A stretch of 64,000 nt of DNA, from positions 1 to 64,000 of the forward strand of contig JAOADA010000002.1 in the NCBI GenBank assembly GCA_026417555.1. The letters are read 5' to 3'. The stretch's first letter is position 1, and every line of letters starts with the position of its first letter. The translations under genes were made by a program, and so were the position numbers. This stretch comes from Brevinematales bacterium. GTDB lineage: Bacteria; Spirochaetota; Brevinematia; Brevinematales; Thermospiraceae. This document shows positions 22,395-32,501 of the stretch, one piece after another. The notes below the pieces were generated by a model. The model did no database searches, was not told the DNA's origin, and saw nothing but the letters and a program-made list of their open reading frames with translations.

Positions 22395-23264
22395 TTAAGC
22401 ATACTTTTTTCGTTTCATGTATTCGTCAAAATCCCCAAGAATCAGAATCCCTTTCTTGTACACAATCACATTGTGGTAACGAGAGTTAACCTCAAGCTTT
22501 TGATTGTCAATGGCCAAGGAAACATTCTCATAAATAGTATCGTGAATGATAATAGTACGCTCCAATTCATCCTGTTTCTGGGACAACTCCCACAATTGTC
22601 TTCGCTCTTGTTGAATCTGGGCTATTTGCTGGCAAATCTGTTGATACCGCTTCACTTGCTGAGCAAGTTCCTGTTTTTTTGCAAGGGGAAGTTGTGTCAC
22701 CTTTTCTCCCAGAATACGAATCACCTGGATCGTTTTTTCATATTTCTCTTTTTCACTTGCAAGTTTTTTCTCCATCTCTCCGAGTTTCTGACTTCTCAAA
22801 AACATATCCGACTGTTTAAAGTTGGTAAGTTTGGCAGTGGTATAAAACCCCTTCTCATTTCCCAAAAACTTTGTCTCTATCTCCATCCCCGCCTCAGCGC
22901 TTCCCCCCACAATAGCTCCTTTTCCCTCTTTGCAGAGGATGGTTTCTTTGGCCACGAGGTGAGCCTCGACCGCCTCATAAAGGATAGTAATAGTTCTCCT
23001 GGCCCGAAGAGTAGCACTCCGTACCGTATGAGCCACAATGTCCCCATCCGCCACAAGGGAGGTTTGATACCCCAACACCAAACCATGAACGGTGATATTT
23101 CCCTCATGGGAAAAGATGCGAGATTGCTCTACATCCCCAATGATGACAATATTCCCTTTTGCTTCAATGTGGTTACCCACCCCAATATTGCCTCGAATCT
23201 CTACATCTTCCTGAAATATCATGGGCTGACTATGCGGAGGAATAGCTGCCTCAATAACCTTCAT
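22395..23264 (-). CDS. FapA/DUF342-family protein
   Basis: A 289-residue protein of the FapA (DUF342, 'flagellar assembly protein A') type. The first 130 residues form a beta-helix of short repeats (NHIEAKGNIVIIGDVEQSRI, then GNITVHGLVLG and so on) ending in the family's glycine-rich IVGGSAEAGMEI. A coiled coil (about 160-235, rich in Lys, Glu, Gln) follows, then a short strand region. The family is common in flagellated bacteria, but its molecular role is not settled. It is the last gene of the fliS-led operon, seven bases after the GAF gene. Lacking the usual N-terminal DUF342 extension, it is shorter than many members. Confidence 0.75.
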   Translation of the reverse strand: MKVIEAAIPPHSQPMIFQEDVEIRGNIGVGNHIEAKGNIVIIGDVEQSRIFSHEGNITVHGLVLGYQTSLVADGDIVAHTVRSATLRARRTITILYEAVEAHLVAKETILCKEGKGAIVGGSAEAGMEIETKFLGNEKGFYTTAKLTNFKQSDMFLRSQKLGEMEKKLASEKEKYEKTIQVIRILGEKVTQLPLAKKQELAQQVKRYQQICQQIAQIQQERRQLWELSQKQDELERTIIIHDTIYENVSLAIDNQKLEVNSRYHNVIVYKKGILILGDFDEYMKRKKYA

Positions 23265-23271
23265 AACTTCT

Positions 23272-24690
23272 TCATACCATCGCCATCAGTTTGGTAATAT
23301 AGGGCAAAAGACTCTCTCCCTCCTCTGGATAACTGGCAAGAGAGGTCTGAACCTGAATAGGGATCTCCCCCTGATGAGAAAACACTTCGGCAACCACGTG
23401 GTGAAGGGTTTCTCCCATAGCCTCAACATCAGAAGAAGGCACCCCCGTAAACACAAAGAGAAACCTCTCCAAGTCATAATGCACCCACTGGGAAAGAGAG
23501 GGAAGCGCATCCACCACCCGATGTTCAAAGGTATGCAAAAGAGATAGCGTTTGTTCCTCTGAATAAAACTCAGGATACTTGGAGAGATTATTGAGCTTGA
23601 GATACAGAAGTGTCATCCCTACCCCGAATTCTCTGGCTTTCTGGGCCTCGGTACGAAGTATCATAAAAAGGGTCTCAAAAGGATTGTGAAGAGACTTCTC
23701 TCTAATCCACTGGGAAAGCAAAAGTGGTGGAGCAATCTGAGAGGCGATAATAGCAAAAAGATTCAGCGTTTCTGTATCAAGTGACGTGATAGGTTGGTTT
23801 TCCAAAGAAAGGATAATCAGTCCCCCCACTCGTCGCTTGACAGTAGAGAGGGGAAGAAAGACATAAGGAGACTTTGACCAGGAGGAGGATGAGATCACTC
23901 TTGGTTGATTATCAGAGAAACATGCCTCCTCCTCGGGAGAAAGAACATACCTCTGATCCACCTGAAATTGATCTATCTGATAACAAAAGGCCACCCTTGC
24001 CTTATCTTGCTGAAAGACAAGCAAAAGAGACGAGGTCACACCAAACCCAGTAGCAAGTGTCTCCTGCAGAAGAGAGGCAATCAAATCAAAATCATCACTC
24101 GAGTTGATGAGGGTGCTAATCTCATAGAGAGCAGAAAGTTGTTTGAGTTTTCTCTCCAAAGCCTCATAGGCCTGTTGAAGGGAAGTATAGAGATGAGCAT
24201 TTTCCAAGGCACTCCCTGCCAACGAAGCCACCGCCTCAATAAAATGATAATCCTCCTCCTGATACACCCCCTCTCCCCGTGGCCCAAGGAGAAGAAAACC
24301 ATTCCATCCGTGTTTACTCATGAGAGGAACAAGCAGACATGGCTTAGCAAGAGAAGAAAAAAAACCGCCCCCTGTAAACTCTTTCACCAACTTCTGAGAA
24401 AACAGAGCCTCTATCCCAAAATCTACTTTCGTATCTATGGTATCCATGCCCTGTTGTTGGGCTAAAATATAGGAAGTATCCTCTTTTTGATAAATAGCCA
24501 CCTCAGAGAGTTGAAATTGCCCCATCAAGGTAAACAAAAGAATCTGCAAGAGTTCTTCACTCTTCAGGGTTGCCCCCAACTCTTTGTTCACCTCCAAGAG
24601 AGTCTGAAGTTCAAGGAGCTTTTTCTCATAGTTGGTAGGAGGTGGTTGGAGACTAAAACGGTAATATTTTGCCTTTTCCCTCAGTCCCAT
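23272..24690 (-). CDS. GAF-GAF-degenerate GGDEF protein
   Basis: A 472-residue cytosolic sensor-like protein. Two GAF-like modules are suggested at about residues 20-165 (ending LAGSALENAHLYTSLQQAY) and 190-330. The last 135 residues follow the diguanylate cyclase fold: LRTEAQKAREFGVGMTLLYL, LHTFEHRVV, the active-site hairpin position and a terminal SLASYPEEGESLLPYITKL. At the hairpin, HYDLERFLF stands where (R)YGGDEF is expected, so the catalytic signature and metal site are lost. It is probably a receptor or scaffold rather than a cyclase. It sits between the acidic repeat protein and the FapA-like protein in the fliS operon. Confidence 0.65.
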   Translation of the reverse strand: MGLREKAKYYRFSLQPPPTNYEKKLLELQTLLEVNKELGATLKSEELLQILLFTLMGQFQLSEVAIYQKEDTSYILAQQQGMDTIDTKVDFGIEALFSQKLVKEFTGGGFFSSLAKPCLLVPLMSKHGWNGFLLLGPRGEGVYQEEDYHFIEAVASLAGSALENAHLYTSLQQAYEALERKLKQLSALYEISTLINSSDDFDLIASLLQETLATGFGVTSSLLLVFQQDKARVAFCYQIDQFQVDQRYVLSPEEEACFSDNQPRVISSSSWSKSPYVFLPLSTVKRRVGGLIILSLENQPITSLDTETLNLFAIIASQIAPPLLLSQWIREKSLHNPFETLFMILRTEAQKAREFGVGMTLLYLKLNNLSKYPEFYSEEQTLSLLHTFEHRVVDALPSLSQWVHYDLERFLFVFTGVPSSDVEAMGETLHHVVAEVFSHQGEIPIQVQTSLASYPEEGESLLPYITKLMAMV

Positions 24691-24699
24691 ACAATTGTC

Positions 24700-26811
24700 C
24701 TACAAACCAAGTTTTTCCATGATCTTCATATAGAGATCATAATACTCCGATTGAGCAAACTCCTTGATTTTTTCCTCAGGAAGATCAGCAAGCAAATTGT
24801 CTAAATATTGAATCACCTTCCGAAGCTCTTCACGAGTAGTACCACTCATGGCATCAAGATTTGTTTCAATCACCTGGCGACGGTCCATCTCTTCTCCCCC
24901 CGAGGGTTCTATATAAGCTTCCCTCACAATGGGCTCTGACACTTCTTCAGGCGTACCCACACCAAGATCAGCCAGAGAAACCTCCACTGTTTCTGCCTCT
25001 TCAATAGGGGGAAGAACCTCTGTTTCTCCTCCTGGAGTTTCTCCCTCACTTGCTAACACCTCAACATCTGGTTCCGCAATCTCAATAAGTTGATTGAGAT
25101 CCTGTTGTTTGATCTCTTCAATCTTTTCTTCTTCTGCAATTATGGATTCAAAACTTTCTGGGGAAAGAGGTACCTCGGTTTCTACAGGGACATCCAAAGG
25201 ACTTCGAAGTTCCATGAAAGCCTCCTCAGGTCCCGTGGATGCCACTTCAACGTTCCCCTCTTCCTCCTCAGCCGAAACAGAAGAGATGGTGAGAGGCGGT
25301 TCTTCGGTCACCTCAATATTATTGAGTTCCTCAAGAGAAAGGGCAATTGGCTCATTCTCATCCTCTACTGTTGGTTGAAGATCAGGAATAGCTGATAGAT
25401 CAAATTGAAAATCCTTCTCCTGGGTCTGTTCTTCTCCCCCTGAGAGTGGGATTTCTGAAACCAAGGGGCTTTCTCCTACTTCAACAACGAGAGGTTCTGT
25501 CTCTACCATTTCAAGGGAAGATGGAGAGGTCTCTTCTTGGAAAAAAGAAGGCCCTGTTTCCCCTTTTCCCTCAAGGATAACAGGCTCCTCCTCAAAAGGA
25601 ATAGGCTCCAAAGAAAGTTCTTCCACTTCGAGAAGAGTCGGCTCCTCAGCAGAAAGAGAAGAAGGCTTTGCTTTCTCTTCCTCAGAGATCTCAACAGGTT
25701 CACCGACTACCTTATCAAGCTCTGACAAATCTGGCAAAGGAACAACCTCCTCCCTTTCGGGGGTTTCTCCACTATCCCGCAACACCTCCGTAGGCTCAGA
25801 GACATAGAGCATCTCTTGGGCGGCAGAGGCTTCATTCTCCACAATGAGCTCAAAATTTTCCTCAAGGGGGACCTGGTTCTTGCTACTTTCCACATACACT
25901 CTCTCCACCGGTGAGGCTACGTGTTGTGGAGAAATGAGAACCTCAGCCGACGCCTCCTCTTGGGGAGGAAGAATCACTTCCTCGCCTTCCTCTTCAGATA
26001 CCACCGGCACTCCCCCTAGGGTATCCCCATACAAAAACCTGTCTAACTCATCCCCACTCAGGCTAATAATCTCATCCTTGTCGTTGATAGGACGAATCTC
26101 CGGGACAACCTCTTCTCCCACAAGTTCAGAACCACTCCCGGCTTCTTCTTTTGAGACCATCTCTTCTCCAACCGGCTCTTGGAGAGGGGGCTCTTCTTCC
26201 GACAAAAGATGAAGGGTGTCCTCCTTTTCAATCCTTGGCACCTCGAGTTCCTGTGGTATCTCTTGTCCCCCCTCAAGAGAAATCGGCCCCCCAAATTCGA
26301 GTTCATCCACATTGAGGCTTTCCAGGGAGGGGGCTTCACCCACACCACTCGCAAGAACATCCTCAGAGAAAGGAGAAGGAGAAGATTCCCCCAAAGAAGG
26401 TGCCGCGGCCTTTGCCACAGCCTCCTCGGTTGCCTGGGAAGAAGCATGAGGGGCAGTTACGGTAAGGTTTTCTGTCTGGATAGTGATTGAGGGAGCTGAA
26501 AGAGTTATCTCCTCAGGTTGAAGCGAGAAACTTCCCGAGAGAGGCACTTCTCCGGAAGAGACACCTCCTCCCCCTCTTTCACCAAACGGCTCGGTTTTCC
26601 CTTCCCCCGCACCACCACCAAAGTTTGCGGTACTGATCTGGATATTCTCTATATTTCCAATACTCCCCACCTCCATACTTCCAGGACCCGTGGCAAACTC
26701 TTGGGGAAGTGGTTCTTCAAACTCTCGAAGATCTATATCATCCAGCGTAATAGTCTCAATATCCATGTCCAGTTCAAAATCGTCGATAATTTCATGGCTC
26801 CCGTTTGGCAT
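24700..26811 (-). CDS. Large acidic disordered protein with repeated short motifs
   Basis: A 703-residue, strongly acidic protein dominated by Glu, Pro, Ser, Gly and Val, with no signal peptide or membrane segment. Short motifs recur between acidic linkers: ITLDDIDL, LNVDELEF, ISLSGDELDRF, LPDLSELDKV, ALSLEELNNI and VSLADLGV, a hydrophobic-Ser/Thr-Leu-x-x-Asp/Glu-Leu pattern. The last 65 residues form a compact helical domain (EELRKVIQYLDNLLADLPEE, then EFAQSEYYDLYMKIMEKLGL). ATG 26811 has AAGGAG six bases upstream. The extra codons from 26838 overlap fliS. I recognise no family. The layout suggests a scaffold binding several copies of a partner. Confidence 0.65.
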   Translation of the reverse strand: MPNGSHEIIDDFELDMDIETITLDDIDLREFEEPLPQEFATGPGSMEVGSIGNIENIQISTANFGGGAGEGKTEPFGERGGGGVSSGEVPLSGSFSLQPEEITLSAPSITIQTENLTVTAPHASSQATEEAVAKAAAPSLGESSPSPFSEDVLASGVGEAPSLESLNVDELEFGGPISLEGGQEIPQELEVPRIEKEDTLHLLSEEEPPLQEPVGEEMVSKEEAGSGSELVGEEVVPEIRPINDKDEIISLSGDELDRFLYGDTLGGVPVVSEEEGEEVILPPQEEASAEVLISPQHVASPVERVYVESSKNQVPLEENFELIVENEASAAQEMLYVSEPTEVLRDSGETPEREEVVPLPDLSELDKVVGEPVEISEEEKAKPSSLSAEEPTLLEVEELSLEPIPFEEEPVILEGKGETGPSFFQEETSPSSLEMVETEPLVVEVGESPLVSEIPLSGGEEQTQEKDFQFDLSAIPDLQPTVEDENEPIALSLEELNNIEVTEEPPLTISSVSAEEEEGNVEVASTGPEEAFMELRSPLDVPVETEVPLSPESFESIIAEEEKIEEIKQQDLNQLIEIAEPDVEVLASEGETPGGETEVLPPIEEAETVEVSLADLGVGTPEEVSEPIVREAYIEPSGGEEMDRRQVIETNLDAMSGTTREELRKVIQYLDNLLADLPEEKIKEFAQSEYYDLYMKIMEKLGL

Positions 26812-26834
26812 ACCACACTCCTTTCTCTCAGGTT

Positions 26835-27242
26835 TCATCCCAACAAGTTCAGATTCTTTTGATCATCAGGAGTCTCTCCTCTCTGCTGGGATAAAAGAAT
26901 CTCCCACGCCTCTTTCAGAGTGGTCATGAGCTTTATCACCTCATCAATAATAGCAACATCCTTGGCTACATTGGCTTCAATGAGACGCCTATTGATATAC
27001 ATATAAAGACTATAAAGGTTTTGAGCAATCTCTCCCGCTTCAAAATTGAGGGAGCTGATAAGTTCAAGCACAATATCCTGGGCTTTGAGAAGATGGTTAT
27101 GAGCCACATCAAGTTTTTTGTTCCGGATGGCTTCTTTAGCGATCCCCAAAAAACGTATCGCCCCCTGATAAAGCATGACCACCAATTTGAGGCCACTCGC
27201 TGTCTCAATATCGACCTCTTTGTAGCTTTGATAGCCTTCCAT
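26835..27242 (-). CDS. fliS: Flagellin export chaperone FliS
   Basis: A 135-residue helical protein starting MEGYQSYKEVDIETASGLKLVVMLYQGAIRFL, the signature of FliS: tyrosine-rich N-terminus, then the 'l...lydgai.fl' helix. It binds the C-terminus of flagellin to prevent polymerisation before export. RNKKLDVAHNHLLKAQDIVLEL and LYMYINRRLIEANV match later helices. It leads the operon with the acidic protein, the GAF protein and the FapA-like protein, uses AAGGAG, and has a sigma-28-like promoter upstream. fliD is not adjacent. Confidence 0.93.
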   Translation of the reverse strand: MEGYQSYKEVDIETASGLKLVVMLYQGAIRFLGIAKEAIRNKKLDVAHNHLLKAQDIVLELISSLNFEAGEIAQNLYSLYMYINRRLIEANVAKDVAIIDEVIKLMTTLKEAWEILLSQQRGETPDDQKNLNLLG

Positions 27243-27384: not shown

Positions 27385-29136
27385 TTAACGGTTGTAAAGA
27401 GGTCTTTCATGGTAATGGGTATGGAGAAGTTTATGACTCTTCTCAGAGAGGGGCTTGCCCAAAAACTCTTTGTAGAGCTGCTGCACCATAGGATTGTGAT
27501 GGGAACAACGAAGATCACTTTGCTTGTCATCCTCATAGATCCCTTTGGCCCGTTTGGCTCGGATCTCATCGGTTGCCCCATAGGGTTGACCACCACCACC
27601 AACACACCCACCACGGCATGCCATCACCTCAATAAAATGGTAAGGAGGTTCTTTGCCAGCAGCAAGTGCGCTCTTGACCTCTTCCATCACATACTGCACA
27701 TTGGCAAGCCCATGGGCAACAGCAATGTTTACCTTGGTACCACTGATATCAATTGTGGCTTTCTTGATACCATCAAGTCCCCGAGTTTGCTCAAAGTCTA
27801 CCTTGCCAAGATCCTTGCCTGTAATAAGGTAGTAAGCCGTACGAAGTGCCGCCTCCATCACTCCACCCGTTGCTCCAAAAATAACCCCAGCCCCTGTATA
27901 ATCCCCCAACATATTATCCGCATCCATGTCTGGGAGATTCAAGAAATCAATCCCTGAGGATTTGATCATCCGGGTAAACTCACGGGTAGTAAGAACAACA
28001 TCCACATCCTGACAACCACTTGCATTCATTTCTTCGGTACGAGTGATCTCATATTTCTTTGCCGTACAGGGCATGATAGAAACCCCATAGATATCACACG
28101 CCTTGAGTCCTTTTTTCTCAGCGTAATACGTCTTGGAAAGCGCCCCTACCATCTCATGGGGAGACTTGGCTGAAGAAAAGTGGGGAATCATATCAGGATA
28201 ATATTTTTCCAGATAATCCACCCATCCAGGACAGCAGGTTGTGATAAGAGGAAGCGGTCCTTTTTTATGAACAAAACGTTCCACAAACTCACTCCCTTCC
28301 TCCATGATGGTAAGGTCAGCCCCAAAGTTAGTATCAAAGACCGCATCAAACCCAAGACGTTTTAGCACACTGTAGATCTTTTTGGTGAGGATAGTGCCTG
28401 GCTCCAATCCAAAAGCCTCTCCGACCGCCACACGCACAGCTGGAGCAATCTGGACAACTTTGTGCTTCTTGGGATCCTGTAGAGCTTCCCATACAGCTGG
28501 GGTTTCATCTTTCTCGTAAAGGGCTCCGACAGGACAGTGTGCCGTACATTGCCCACACTTCACACAAGGACTATCAAGGAGTTTGACATCCGCCGCTGGG
28601 GCAATACGCATATTGTATCCACGCCCAATAAACTCCAGAGCCCAAACGTTTTGCATGACCTGACATACCTCAACACAGCGCCCACATTTCACACACTTTG
28701 CTGGATTGATGGTCAGGGCAGGGGAAGAATCATCCACAGGGTGTTCCACCACCATATTGGTAAATGGTACCTCCCGAATCCCAAAATCCTCCGCAAGTTT
28801 CTGGAGTTCACAGTTGCCGTTTCTTGGACAACGGAGACAATCGTTGGGATGGTTGGAGAGGATCAGTTCCAATACTGTGCGACGAACCTGATAAAGCTCT
28901 GGATCATGGGTGATAACCTCCATACCAGGCTCTGCCTTTGTAGCACAGGCTCGGATCATCTTGGGATTATTCCTGATCTTGACAATACAAAGCCCACAGG
29001 CCGCCGTCGGGGGAAGATCTGGATGATTACAGAGTTTCGGAATATTCACCTGTGCCTTTTTGGCAGCCTCAAGAATGGTTGTCCCCTTCGGAACCTCAAC
29101 AGCAATATCGTTGATCTTTATCTGAATCATTTCCAT
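27385..29136 (-). CDS. hydA: [FeFe] hydrogenase catalytic subunit HydA
   Basis: A 583-residue hydrogenase. N-terminal 2Fe-2S domain (C36, C47, C50, C64); His-Cys3 cluster region (HPNDCLRCPRNGNC, about 96-109); two [4Fe-4S] sets (CVKCGRCVEVC at 148-158, CVKCGQCTAHC at 191-201); then the H-cluster domain with TTCCPGW (299-305), MPCTAKKYE (355-363) and MACRGGCVGGGGQP. The C-terminal small-subunit-like tail (SHHNPMVQQLYKEFLGKPL) is present. With HydB and HydC it forms the bifurcating enzyme that makes H2 from NADH and reduced ferredoxin together. AAAGGAGG precedes ATG. The maturases HydEFG are not in the window. Confidence 0.95.
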   Translation of the reverse strand: MEMIQIKINDIAVEVPKGTTILEAAKKAQVNIPKLCNHPDLPPTAACGLCIVKIRNNPKMIRACATKAEPGMEVITHDPELYQVRRTVLELILSNHPNDCLRCPRNGNCELQKLAEDFGIREVPFTNMVVEHPVDDSSPALTINPAKCVKCGRCVEVCQVMQNVWALEFIGRGYNMRIAPAADVKLLDSPCVKCGQCTAHCPVGALYEKDETPAVWEALQDPKKHKVVQIAPAVRVAVGEAFGLEPGTILTKKIYSVLKRLGFDAVFDTNFGADLTIMEEGSEFVERFVHKKGPLPLITTCCPGWVDYLEKYYPDMIPHFSSAKSPHEMVGALSKTYYAEKKGLKACDIYGVSIMPCTAKKYEITRTEEMNASGCQDVDVVLTTREFTRMIKSSGIDFLNLPDMDADNMLGDYTGAGVIFGATGGVMEAALRTAYYLITGKDLGKVDFEQTRGLDGIKKATIDISGTKVNIAVAHGLANVQYVMEEVKSALAAGKEPPYHFIEVMACRGGCVGGGGQPYGATDEIRAKRAKGIYEDDKQSDLRCSHHNPMVQQLYKEFLGKPLSEKSHKLLHTHYHERPLYNR

Positions 29137-29148
29137 GGCTTGCCTCCT

Positions 29149-30936
29149 TTAGCTTTTCATCACGGCGCCAAACTTACAGACCGTATAACAGTTACCACAC
29201 TTGATACACTTTGCCTGATCAATGGTATGGGGTTTGCGTTTCTCTCCAGAGATACAATTCACAGGACATTTCATAGCACAGAGCCCACACCCAATACACT
29301 TTTGGGGATCAATCACATAACTGACAAGCTCCTTACAACTCCCCGAGGTACATTTCTTCTCCACAATATGCTGACGATATTCATGCTCAAAGTATTTAAG
29401 AGTAGAGAGAACAGGGTTCGGAGCGGTTTGTCCAAGCCCACAGAGAGAAGCCTTTTGCATGGCCTGACCAATTTTCTTGAGTTTGTCAATATCGGAAAGT
29501 TCTCCCTTCCCTTTGGAAATTCTGTCAAGAATCCCATGCATCTGGCGTCCTCCAATACGGCAAGGAGAACATTTCCCACACGATTCATCCACAGTAAACT
29601 CAAGATAAAACTTGGCGATATCAATCATACAGTCGTCTTCATCCATCACAATAAGGCCACCAGACCCCATGATGGAACCCAACTTCTGGAGGTTTTCATA
29701 ATCAATAGGCGTATCCAAATAGTCGGCAGGGATAACACCTCCCGATGGACCCCCAGACTGGACAGCTTTAAACTTCTTGCCACCCTTAATCCCACCCCCA
29801 ATGTCAAAAATCACCTCTCGAAGAGTGGTTCCCATCGGGACCTCAATAAGCCCAGAGTTGTTTACCTTTCCTGTGAGAGCAAATACTTTTGTTCCCTTTG
29901 AGGTCTCGGTTCCTATACTTGAAAACCATTTTCCTCCTTTCAGGATAATGACTGGGATACTTGCCCAGGTTTCCACGTTGTTAATCACCGTGGGCTTGCC
30001 CCAAAGTCCACTCACAGCAGGAAAAGGTGGTCGAGGACGAGGCATCCCTCGATTGCCCTCGATAGAGGCAAGAAGCGCTGTTTCCTCTCCACACACAAAA
30101 GCCCCTGCCCCAAGCCGAATCTCAATATCAAAATTAAACCCACTCCCCAGAATATCTTTTCCCAAAAGCCCAAGTTCTCTCGCTTGGGCAATAGCCTTTT
30201 CCAAGCGTTTGATAGCCAAGGGATACTCCGCTCGAATATACACATATCCCTGATTCGCTCCCACCGTATAGCCACAGATCGTCATAGCCTCAATAATCGA
30301 ATGAGGATCTCCCTCAATCGTACTTCTGTCCATATAAGCACCAGGATCCCCCTCGTCAGCGTTACACACTACATATTTGATATCTGACTGCACATCCTTG
30401 GTGAAGACCCATTTCCTCCAGGTAGGGAAACCAGCCCCACCCCTTCCGCGAAGTCCAGAGATCTTGAGTTCCTCAATCACATCATCTGGCTTCATTTCAA
30501 AAAGCACTTTTTCCAACGCCTTGTATCCATCCCGAGCAATATACTCATTGATATTTTCTGGATCAATAACACCACAGTTGCGAAGGACAATACGGAATTG
30601 TTTCTGATAAAAGGGAATATTCTCAATACGGACATTCTTCTGGCTTTCCTCATATTGGTACACAAGGTCTTTCACAGGGCGTCCCTTTAACAAATGTTCC
30701 TGAACAATCCTGTCAGCATCTTCTACCTTCACATCCACATAAAACGTCTCGTCAGGAAGCACCTTGACAATTGGCCCTTTTTCGCAGAGCCCAAAACACC
30801 CTGTTTTCACAAGCTGAATCTCATCTTGAAGCCCAAGTTCCGTCATTTTCTTTTTCATGGCATCAAAAATGACACCAGCCTTGTTGGATTCACAGCCTGT
30901 CCCACCACAAACCAGAACAAAACCTCTATACGCCAT
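29149..30936 (-). CDS. hydB: Bifurcating hydrogenase subunit HydB (NuoF-like)
   Basis: A 595-residue flavin and iron-sulfur subunit. An N-terminal thioredoxin-like 2Fe-2S domain (CGGTGCESNK, later GCFGLCEKGP) is fused to a NuoF core with FMN site GRGGAGFPTWRKW, NADH site GAGAFVCGEETALLASIEG and the cluster SCGKCSPCR with SLCGLGQ. A C-terminal ferredoxin domain has CIGCGLCAMKC and CIKCGNCYTVC. This is the site of NAD reaction and proposed electron bifurcation. It lies 12 bases before hydA. Length is as in Thermotoga-type HydB. Confidence 0.94.
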   Translation of the reverse strand: MAYRGFVLVCGGTGCESNKAGVIFDAMKKKMTELGLQDEIQLVKTGCFGLCEKGPIVKVLPDETFYVDVKVEDADRIVQEHLLKGRPVKDLVYQYEESQKNVRIENIPFYQKQFRIVLRNCGVIDPENINEYIARDGYKALEKVLFEMKPDDVIEELKISGLRGRGGAGFPTWRKWVFTKDVQSDIKYVVCNADEGDPGAYMDRSTIEGDPHSIIEAMTICGYTVGANQGYVYIRAEYPLAIKRLEKAIAQARELGLLGKDILGSGFNFDIEIRLGAGAFVCGEETALLASIEGNRGMPRPRPPFPAVSGLWGKPTVINNVETWASIPVIILKGGKWFSSIGTETSKGTKVFALTGKVNNSGLIEVPMGTTLREVIFDIGGGIKGGKKFKAVQSGGPSGGVIPADYLDTPIDYENLQKLGSIMGSGGLIVMDEDDCMIDIAKFYLEFTVDESCGKCSPCRIGGRQMHGILDRISKGKGELSDIDKLKKIGQAMQKASLCGLGQTAPNPVLSTLKYFEHEYRQHIVEKKCTSGSCKELVSYVIDPQKCIGCGLCAMKCPVNCISGEKRKPHTIDQAKCIKCGNCYTVCKFGAVMKS

Positions 30937-30945
30937 GGCTTCCTC

Positions 30946-31335
30946 CTACTTCATGATGTCGGCAGCGGGCTTGTCCATGACATGCTCGCTCACCAGTTTT
31001 TTGTGGATCACATGATCCTCAAGAATTTTTCGTGCCACATCAGCAGTCACCTTCCCATAGATGGTTCGAGGCATATCAGGCATTACTACCTCAACAGTAG
31101 GTTCTACATAACAGTACCCCATACACCCTGTCTGTTTCACCACAATATCCTTGAGACCAAGCTTCTCAATGTTCTCTACAAAGGACTTGAGAGTATCCCG
31201 CGCACCCGCAGCAATCCCACACGTCCCCATTCCTACGATAATAATCGTAGATTTACCCTCAACTTCTCGTTTCTCTATTTCAGTCTTTGTTTTCTCACGA
31301 AGACGTCTCAACTCTTCAAGCGTGATTTTTGCCAT
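30946..31335 (-). CDS. Thioredoxin-like 2Fe-2S protein of the hydrogenase operon
   Basis: A 129-residue protein with a short helical N-terminus and a thioredoxin-like ferredoxin domain whose cysteines are GMGTCGIAAGARDTL (one Cys, against CGGTGC in HydB) and QTGCMGYCYVEP. This resembles the N-terminal domain of HydB and the HydC cluster domain. Only three of the usual four ligand cysteines (C38, C70, C74) are apparent, so cluster type is uncertain. Such small ferredoxins are often found between hydB and the HATPase gene in [FeFe]-hydrogenase operons. It overlaps the HATPase gene by 20 bases. Confidence 0.75.
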   Translation of the reverse strand: MAKITLEELRRLREKTKTEIEKREVEGKSTIIIVGMGTCGIAAGARDTLKSFVENIEKLGLKDIVVKQTGCMGYCYVEPTVEVVMPDMPRTIYGKVTADVARKILEDHVIHKKLVSEHVMDKPAADIMK

Positions 31336-31882
31336 AGGCTTCCTCCTTTACCTCTTCCTCTGATCTTTCAAAATACAACTTTACCAGTGAGAATGCCGTC
31401 GCATCCTCAAGTTCTCCCACACTTTCCCGAAGTTCACTACGCACCACCCTATAGGAAACGTTTCCCCTCCTTCTGTGGATAAGCATCTCATATTCCCCCT
31501 GAAAACACATGATTTGAGCAAAAAGATAGGGAAGATCCCCCACTGGGGGCATATCCACATGGTGTTTGGGAAGAACAAGGGCTACAGAAGTTCCTTCACC
31601 TTTATGAGAATCAATATGAAACTCTCCCCCAACCGTCTCACAGAGTTGCTTGGCAAACGCAAGACCCAACCCTACCCTGCGGTGAGCGTGCTTCGTTACA
31701 TCCGTATAAAAAGGATCTGTCGCTTGCTTCATCTCCTCCGTCGACATCCCACACCCATTATCTCCTACACAACAGGTAAGTGTCTGATCATCCTCCAGAT
31801 AATCTACCGTTATAAGTGTGGCTCGAGCCTCAAGAGCATTCTGAACAAGTTCATAAAGGATATCTGTCAGTGTAGCATGCAT
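31316..31882 (-). CDS. HATPase-domain protein of the hydrogenase operon
   Basis: A 188-residue GHKL ATPase-domain protein without a histidine-phosphotransfer or sensor domain. The N-box is ELVQNALEA (11-19), the G1 box DNGCGM (41-46) and the G2 box GLGLAFAK (71-78). These are the ATP-binding motifs of histidine kinases and anti-sigma kinases. The C-terminal 75 residues are unrecognised and acidic. Similar stand-alone HATPase genes occur between hydC and hydB in several anaerobes, but no role is established that I know of. Regulatory phosphorylation or ATP-dependent assembly are both possible. Confidence 0.75.
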   Translation of the reverse strand: MHATLTDILYELVQNALEARATLITVDYLEDDQTLTCCVGDNGCGMSTEEMKQATDPFYTDVTKHAHRRVGLGLAFAKQLCETVGGEFHIDSHKGEGTSVALVLPKHHVDMPPVGDLPYLFAQIMCFQGEYEMLIHRRRGNVSYRVVRSELRESVGELEDATAFSLVKLYFERSEEEVKEEAYGKNHA

Positions 31883-31885
31883 AGG

Positions 31886-32368
31886 CTATTTACTGTACTT
31901 TGCAATAATATCGGGGATCTGGTCCTTCGTCAAACGCCCATACACTTCTCCATCAACGGTAAGGACAGGAGCAAGCCCACAACATCCCAGACAGCGTACG
32001 GCTTGAAGAGAGAATTGCCCATCATCCGTGGTACCATTCACACCGACCCCAAGCTGAACCTCAAGCTCCTTGATGAGATCCTCTCCCCCCTTGAGATAAC
32101 AGGCTGTCCCCATACACACAGAGATAGTATGTTTCCCCGGCTTCACCAAGCGGAAGAAGTGATAAAACGTCACCACCCCATAGATTTTTGCCAGAGGCAC
32201 ATCTAGCATACGGGATAAAGACAGGGCAACATCTCGAGGGATATACCCATATTCCTCCTGTACCCGATGCAGAATCATGATAAGATTCCCCGGTTTTGAC
32301 TTCCATTCTTCTATGAATGAAAGGAGTTCCGGAGACAACTTCACCTCTTTCTCTTTGGTCTCAAACAT
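31886..32368 (-). CDS. hydC: Bifurcating hydrogenase subunit HydC (NuoE-like)
   Basis: A 160-residue NuoE-like subunit: an N-terminal helical domain (LIMILHRVQEEYGYIPRDVA) and a thioredoxin-like 2Fe-2S domain with CMGTACYLKGG and CLGCCGLAPV, giving four ligand cysteines. It passes electrons between HydB and HydA. ATG 32368 follows GGAGGAGAGACG at normal distance; the upstream in-frame ATG at 32410 has no such site. It is the first gene of the five-gene operon, with a leader of about 125 bases. Confidence 0.92.
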   Translation of the reverse strand: MFETKEKEVKLSPELLSFIEEWKSKPGNLIMILHRVQEEYGYIPRDVALSLSRMLDVPLAKIYGVVTFYHFFRLVKPGKHTISVCMGTACYLKGGEDLIKELEVQLGVGVNGTTDDGQFSLQAVRCLGCCGLAPVLTVDGEVYGRLTKDQIPDIIAKYSK

Positions 32369-32501
32369 CGTCTCTCCTCCTTCTTCAGTGTATTTCTTTT
32401 CAGTAAACACTCCCCTTCCTTGGGGAAATCATCTTCACACATCTCTCAAAAAAACGTCCAATGATTCTTTTTTTTGGAAATACTTGCAATTATATGCTAT
32501 T

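Follow-up and report, generated by a model that had tools for sequence, protein, structure and literature searches.

A single-copy acidic protein family of spirochaetes whose C-terminal module is encoded next to an N-terminal MGLxxKA peptide, with a recurrence in archaea

The stretch of DNA analysed here (the window; 64,000 nucleotides of contig JAOADA010000002.1 from a Brevinematales bacterium) encodes an acidic protein, hereafter the scaffold, that belongs to a single-copy family of no assigned function conserved over most of the spirochaete phylum. Members of this family combine a long disordered arm, which carries a short conserved motif, with a small C-terminal module, and the scaffold gene is typically followed by a gene, hereafter the partner, whose product starts with an MGLxxKA peptide; the module and the gene pairing recur in archaea. 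The most informative part of this system consists of the last 65 residues of the scaffold and the N-terminal 10 residues of the protein encoded next, a pair that is conserved phylum-wide and in archaea.

The explanation that we favour, and consider reasonably probable, is that the scaffold is a disordered motility adaptor, in which a C-terminal docking domain binds the MGLxxKA helix of the next gene product and the motifs of the arm gather clients. Specifically, the C-terminal 65 residues would fold as a small helical docking domain (socket) that would bind the amphipathic helix MGL[LMR]x[KR]A (plug) at the N-terminus of the next gene product, in the window, a protein with GAF and degenerate GGDEF domains. 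Translation of the plug gene would begin where the socket gene ends, which may favour assembly, and the long acidic arm would display 1–7 copies (two in the window) of a helix-forming motif to a client; a sensory-type partner would thereby be brought together with flagellar clients. If the contact between the module and the peptide is real, a domain of 65 residues and a peptide of 12 residues provide a testable handle, the orphan GAF/GGDEF-like proteins of spirochaetes and the extended N-terminus of pilus ATPases in archaea gain a partner, and the pair would be a rare protein-interaction cassette common to one bacterial and one archaeal phylum.

The scaffold gene, its spread and its neighbourhood

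The open reading frame described in an earlier note on this DNA, with its strand, length of 703 residues and coordinates (Table 1), is supported by the ORF call, by the Shine-Dalgarno site and by the start codon, which is retained in two congeners (71% and 61% identity). The protein is as acidic as that note had it, with Glu and Asp accounting for 25% of the residues versus 5% for Lys and Arg, and a pI of about 4.05. The note could name no family, and neither could we: the window scaffold produced no matches to Pfam or NCBIfam at an E-value of 1. Apparently, family databases have missed these proteins because nearly all of the sequence is disordered. The notion of a multivalent scaffold remains the best broad description, that is, a disordered, flagella-linked protein for which we infer multivalency and a flagellar role; the form of the motif proposed with it and the general linkage to fliS did not hold up, as detailed below.

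Table 1. Features of the scaffold locus (positions in the window)
Feature	Position	Strand	Remarks
FapA-like beta-solenoid protein	22395..23264	-	PF03961, E 1.7e-40; same direction as scaffold
Partner gene, GAF + degenerate GGDEF	23272..24690	-	472 aa; ATG 9 nt past scaffold TAG stop
Partner N-terminal peptide MGLREKAKYYRF	24655..24690	-	starts MGLREKA; proposed ligand of C-terminal module
Scaffold ORF	24700..26811	-	703 aa, acidic, mostly disordered; ATG at 26811
C-terminal module, residues 637-703	24703..24903	-	four predicted helices; proposed docking domain
Motif copy 2 IALSLEELNNIE, residues 489-500	25312..25347	-	phylum-wide motif; profile E 1.5e-5 in whole genome
Motif copy 1 ISLSGDELDRFL, residues 249-260	26032..26067	-	phylum-wide motif; profile E 1.9e-7 in whole genome
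Weak motif-like ESLNVDEL, residues 164-171	26299..26322	-	outside phylum-wide motif
Conserved N-terminal segment, residues 1-35	26707..26811	-	near-invariant within genus; partial matches in family f3
Weak motif-like ITLDDIDL, residues 21-28	26728..26751	-	outside phylum-wide motif
Shine-Dalgarno AAAGGAG	26818..26824	-	6 nt 5' of ATG at 26811
fliS	26835..27242	-	PF02561, E 3.1e-39; directly upstream of scaffold; linkage mainly in window's order

When the last 65 residues were searched as a profile, along the lines proposed in the earlier note, matches were detected in 287 of the 393 spirochaete genomes, representing 146 of the 168 genera, almost always one per genome. FliM, used as the flagellar marker, was found in 338 of the 393 genomes. 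Comparison of the two lists by eye yielded about 273 genomes with both proteins, 65 with FliM alone (36 of these from the Borreliaceae-like family f36), about 14 with the module and no detected FliM, mostly, incomplete assemblies, and 41 with neither, including family f49. This co-occurrence fits a flagellar role, with modest weight given that few independent events are involved. In the Borreliaceae-like genomes, FliM is retained and the module is not detected by the profile; thus, the scaffold is not required for every periplasmic flagellum. The profile match is weak in the Brachyspira-like genomes (family f14), and no plasmids with the module were found in searches for it.

The scaffold is present also in a Treponema pallidum-like genome (G068), where the scaffold, the partner, two MptE-like genes and a gene for a weak-GGDEF protein lie in a row (L063). 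The partner in this locus contains no recognizable GAF, GGDEF or other Pfam domain. The position of the locus suggests that the T. pallidum scaffold gene may lie at TP0180-TP0182; a literature search by this likely locus number returned nothing useful on the gene.

To characterize the neighbourhoods, stretches of up to 20 kb were read from 40 further genomes. In the window, Pfam searches with the neighbouring proteins agree with the earlier placement of the scaffold between FliS and the GAF/degenerate-GGDEF protein. The expectation that the fliS neighbourhood would be a shared trait of spirochaetes, however, was not borne out: fliS adjoins the scaffold gene in the taxonomic order of the window (L002, L047-L050), and elsewhere it was seen nearby only once, in L059, arranged as scaffold-Maf-fliS, so that fliS was rejected as a universal neighbour. 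One or two Maf/MptE-like genes (PF01973, PF20157) lie downstream in many families, and fliM is also encountered downstream, at a distance of three genes in L076 and of about 2.7 kb in G033. The proximity of fliS, Maf/MptE-like genes and fliM speaks for a flagellar link; in several loci, by our reading of the sequences, the genes upstream of the pair are not flagellar and instead resemble ATP synthase or smpB genes. Maf-type genes act on flagellin in other bacteria, and their frequent presence beside the scaffold gene, together with the adjacent fliS in the window's order and in L059, is compatible with a version of the earlier note's flagellar scaffold in which it would act with FliS in flagellin export. 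Most families, however, lack fliS next to the scaffold, and the archaeal homologues sit among type IV pilus or other genes, so we consider this idea improbable. Directly beyond fliS in the window, on the same strand (27385-32410, -), there are HydA-, HydB/NuoF- and NuoE-like ORFs that, from the sequence only, resemble an electron-bifurcating [FeFe]-hydrogenase.

The C-terminal module and the MGLxxKA peptide

In 28 of the 42 loci, a next gene whose product starts with MGL[LMR]x[KR]A lies no more than about 18 codons from the stop codon of the scaffold, and 6 more loci contain close variants of this start; among independent loci, the start is present in 16 of the 24. By comparison, none of the 568 other neighbouring ORFs starts in this manner. 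In a minority of the loci (for example, L050, L054, L056 and L059), no recognizable partner adjoins the scaffold. The peptide that is proposed to dock on residues 637-703 has the form MGLREKAKYYRFSLQ. GL[LMR]x[KR]A is also often repeated inside the partners (47 copies vs 2.3 expected), and the number of peptide copies in the partner rises with the number of motif copies in the scaffold (rho 0.47, p 0.015, uncorrected for kinship). One of the partners (L073:9969-12896, +) contains about ten GLMHRAEQARHSEESGSGS-type units, in which the plug peptide is borne on Gly/Ser-rich spacers. Matches to MGLLTKA near fliM in treponemes were rejected because they belong to a 62-aa stretch that resembles a conserved segment of FliR, where the Met is internal and not a start.

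The compact helical C-terminal domain anticipated in the earlier note was recovered by AlphaFold, which models the module as four helices with a pLDDT of 85. A sequence profile search of the PDB gave no match below an E-value of 0.1, and a Foldseek search with the model gave a best E-value of 4.9 and no fold match. In L061, the gap between the stop codon of the scaffold and the start codon of the partner is in frame, so that the read-through chain consists of the module, an 18-residue linker and the partner peptide. The AlphaFold model of this chain, with a pLDDT of 93-95 for the module, 53 for the linker and about 88 for the peptide helix, suggests contact between the module and the peptide, although the run returned pLDDT only, with no coordinates or scrambled control, and a lone helix can score well. 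Taken together with the pairing of the genes, the module is probably a docking domain that would bind the MGLLxKA helix.

Among 84,980 species genomes scanned with a pattern, 30 spirochaete-type loci were recovered, together with a single archaeal MAG, 'Euryarchaeota archaeon SAT205' (L197). The module protein of this archaeon contains two tandem modules, and the gene that comes within a few codons after it starts with MGLLDKVENAK. The archaeon appears to belong to the order Poseidoniales of the phylum Thermoplasmatota. A profile built from spirochaete sequences only detected the module in 66 of the 97 genomes of this order, and a joint profile detected it in 127 of the 293 genomes of the phylum, with E-values down to 1e-19. 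Within the order, the loci read have, with two exceptions, a next gene that starts with MGLL[DE]KA or a sequence near it; outside the order, an MGL-type gene is located directly behind the module gene in most of the 20 loci, in one case (L328) apparently using a GTG start codon. As with the spirochaete protein, the archaeal relative has no matches in Pfam or NCBIfam (at an E-value of 0.05).

The bodies of the archaeal partners differ completely and include T2SSE/PilB3 ATPases, an RDD membrane protein, a MoxR-type AAA protein and long coiled coils. The partner ATPases sit in operons that also encode archaeal pilins, prepilin peptidase and T2SSF. In three type IV pilus operons (L325-L327; pilins, prepilin peptidase, T2SSE, T2SSF), the module gene lies just before the ATPase gene. 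Furthermore, L296, L304 and L307 each contain a chain of three genes: the middle one, flanked by a module gene and a peptide gene, encodes a protein with MGL[LR]xKA at its N-terminus and a module at its C-terminus. An ATPase encoded away from the module would be expected to lack the peptide if the two belong together. Indeed, among the T2SSE ATPases with a readable start, 8 of the 9 that adjoin the module carry the peptide (the ninth reads MGLLEQS), compared to 0 of 7 encoded at other sites of these genomes and 0 of 20 from module-free genomes; the starts were derived from stop-to-stop frames, and loci in which no ATPase frame could be read were excluded.

These observations bear on two other explanations of the pairing. 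It could be a by-product of operon conservation, with the module and the peptide functioning separately: gene order alone never proves contact, and the spirochaete pair could be one inherited block. Such an origin seems distinctly improbable because the pair recurs in both Bacteria and Archaea, its partner bodies are of at least four unrelated kinds, and the ATPases carry the peptide only where the genes are adjacent. Alternatively, MGLLxKA might be a membrane-targeting amphipathic helix, with the module dimerising or also located at the membrane rather than binding the peptide; the two genes would then be paired because both products act at the membrane. N-terminal amphipathic helices rich in Leu and Lys/Arg are a common membrane anchor, and some of the archaeal partners are membrane proteins (RDD). 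Nevertheless, the peptide is found on unrelated partners, some of which are in the membrane already, is present on ATPases only beside the module (8/9 vs 0/27), is repeated internally with linkers and takes part, in both-ended proteins, in three-gene chains, so membrane targeting appears unlikely to account for the pairing.

Extending the docking explanation beyond the spirochaetes, we regard as evenly balanced the case for a docking code common to Bacteria and Archaea. The module and MGLLxKA would have moved among GAF sensors, PilB-type ATPases, RDD and AAA proteins, tethering these to disordered scaffolds at flagella or pili and, in some archaea, forming head-to-tail chains.

The motif of the acidic arm

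According to the earlier note, the pattern hydrophobic-[ST]-L-x-x-[DE]-L occurs six or more times, at intervals of 70-100 residues. This pattern has no matches in the window scaffold, either as written or in a slightly looser form. When three residues are allowed between L and [DE], 3-4 matches appear (residues 21, 164, 249 and 489) compared to 0.1-0.3 in shuffled sequences; these are spaced by 143, 85 and 240 residues, which does not agree with the spacing given before. What is conserved is a longer motif, an acidic run followed by I-x-L-[ST]-x-[DE]-E-L-[DN]-x-I, with two copies in the window scaffold (Table 1); the sequence of the inner-motif peptide is DEPIALSLEELNNIEV. Across 42 homologues, there are 58 copies of this motif vs 2.5 in shuffled sequences, with the pattern drawn from these same proteins; across 24 homologues outside its definition, there are 27 copies vs 2.0. 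The spirochaete homologues mostly retain the motif, with 1-7 copies each, and absence of conserved motifs from homologues, which the earlier note had named as evidence against its reading, is not what was found. In a motif profile search of 12 whole genomes, the scaffold was the sole strong match in each. In one locus (L072:7599-9875, -), the partner protein itself contains a single copy of the scaffold motif, ITLTAEELADL.

A CheY-like receiver is one idea for the client of the motif because the N-termini of FliM look alike. Under this explanation, the motif would be a FliM-N-like (EIDALL-type) peptide that binds CheY-P, and the scaffold would serve as a buffer or dock for CheY-P near the motors. 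The motif, L-[ST]-x-[DE]-E-L-[DN]-x-I-L, indeed resembles the FliM N-termini of the same phylum (LSQDEIDQLL) position by position, and most FliM segments obtain 7-15 bits when scored with the motif matrix, a scale on which only 4 of the 135,661 background 12-mers reach 12. Conversely, the motif profile misses FliM in the 12 whole genomes even at an E-value of 10, a helix-capping box followed by an amphipathic helix is a common arrangement, and FliM has nothing equivalent to the acidic run upstream of the motif or to its leading I-A. On balance, a CheY-P dock seems rather unlikely, and we favour the motility adaptor, with the motifs gathering clients.

Comparison with known systems

The partner in the window is similar to the GAF/GGDEF diguanylate cyclase DgcA in that it combines a GAF domain with a GGDEF-like end (NCBIfam DgcA, E-value of 1.4e-12, far under the cut-off) but differs in that its GGDEF end is weak and degenerate and in the additional N-terminal MGLxxKA peptide. 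The motif of the arm is similar to the CheY-binding N-terminal peptide of FliM in how its residues are spaced, L-[ST]-x-x-E-[LI]-D-x-[IL]-L; unlike the FliM peptide, it is internal, repeated and preceded by an acidic run and I-A.

In its overall layout, the scaffold is reminiscent of polar hubs. In the FimV/HubP/TspA proteins, which are linked to flagella or pili, an acidic arm in the cytosol is likewise joined to a small domain at the C-terminus, whereas the scaffold has no FimV, LysM or other Pfam or NCBIfam match. PopZ, the polar hub of alphaproteobacteria, similarly consists of a short N-terminal region, a long acidic disordered linker and a compact helical C-terminus. No sequence relation between the two proteins was found (no Pfam match), and, in contrast to PopZ, the C-terminus of the scaffold appears to take up a peptide of its partner and not simply to self-assemble, and the linker contains 1-7 client motifs.

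For the proposed contact itself, a parallel is provided by the C- and N-terminal docking domains of modular polyketide and peptide synthases, to which the module shows no sequence homology in Pfam. In these synthases, a small helical C-terminus meets a short N-terminal helix of the next gene product, an arrangement matched here by the pairing of the genes, and both-ended proteins line up in ordered chains, as in L296, L304 and L307. The system described here differs from the synthases in that the partners are sensors, ATPases and membrane proteins, the peptides are often repeated and, in archaea, the modules occur in tandem.
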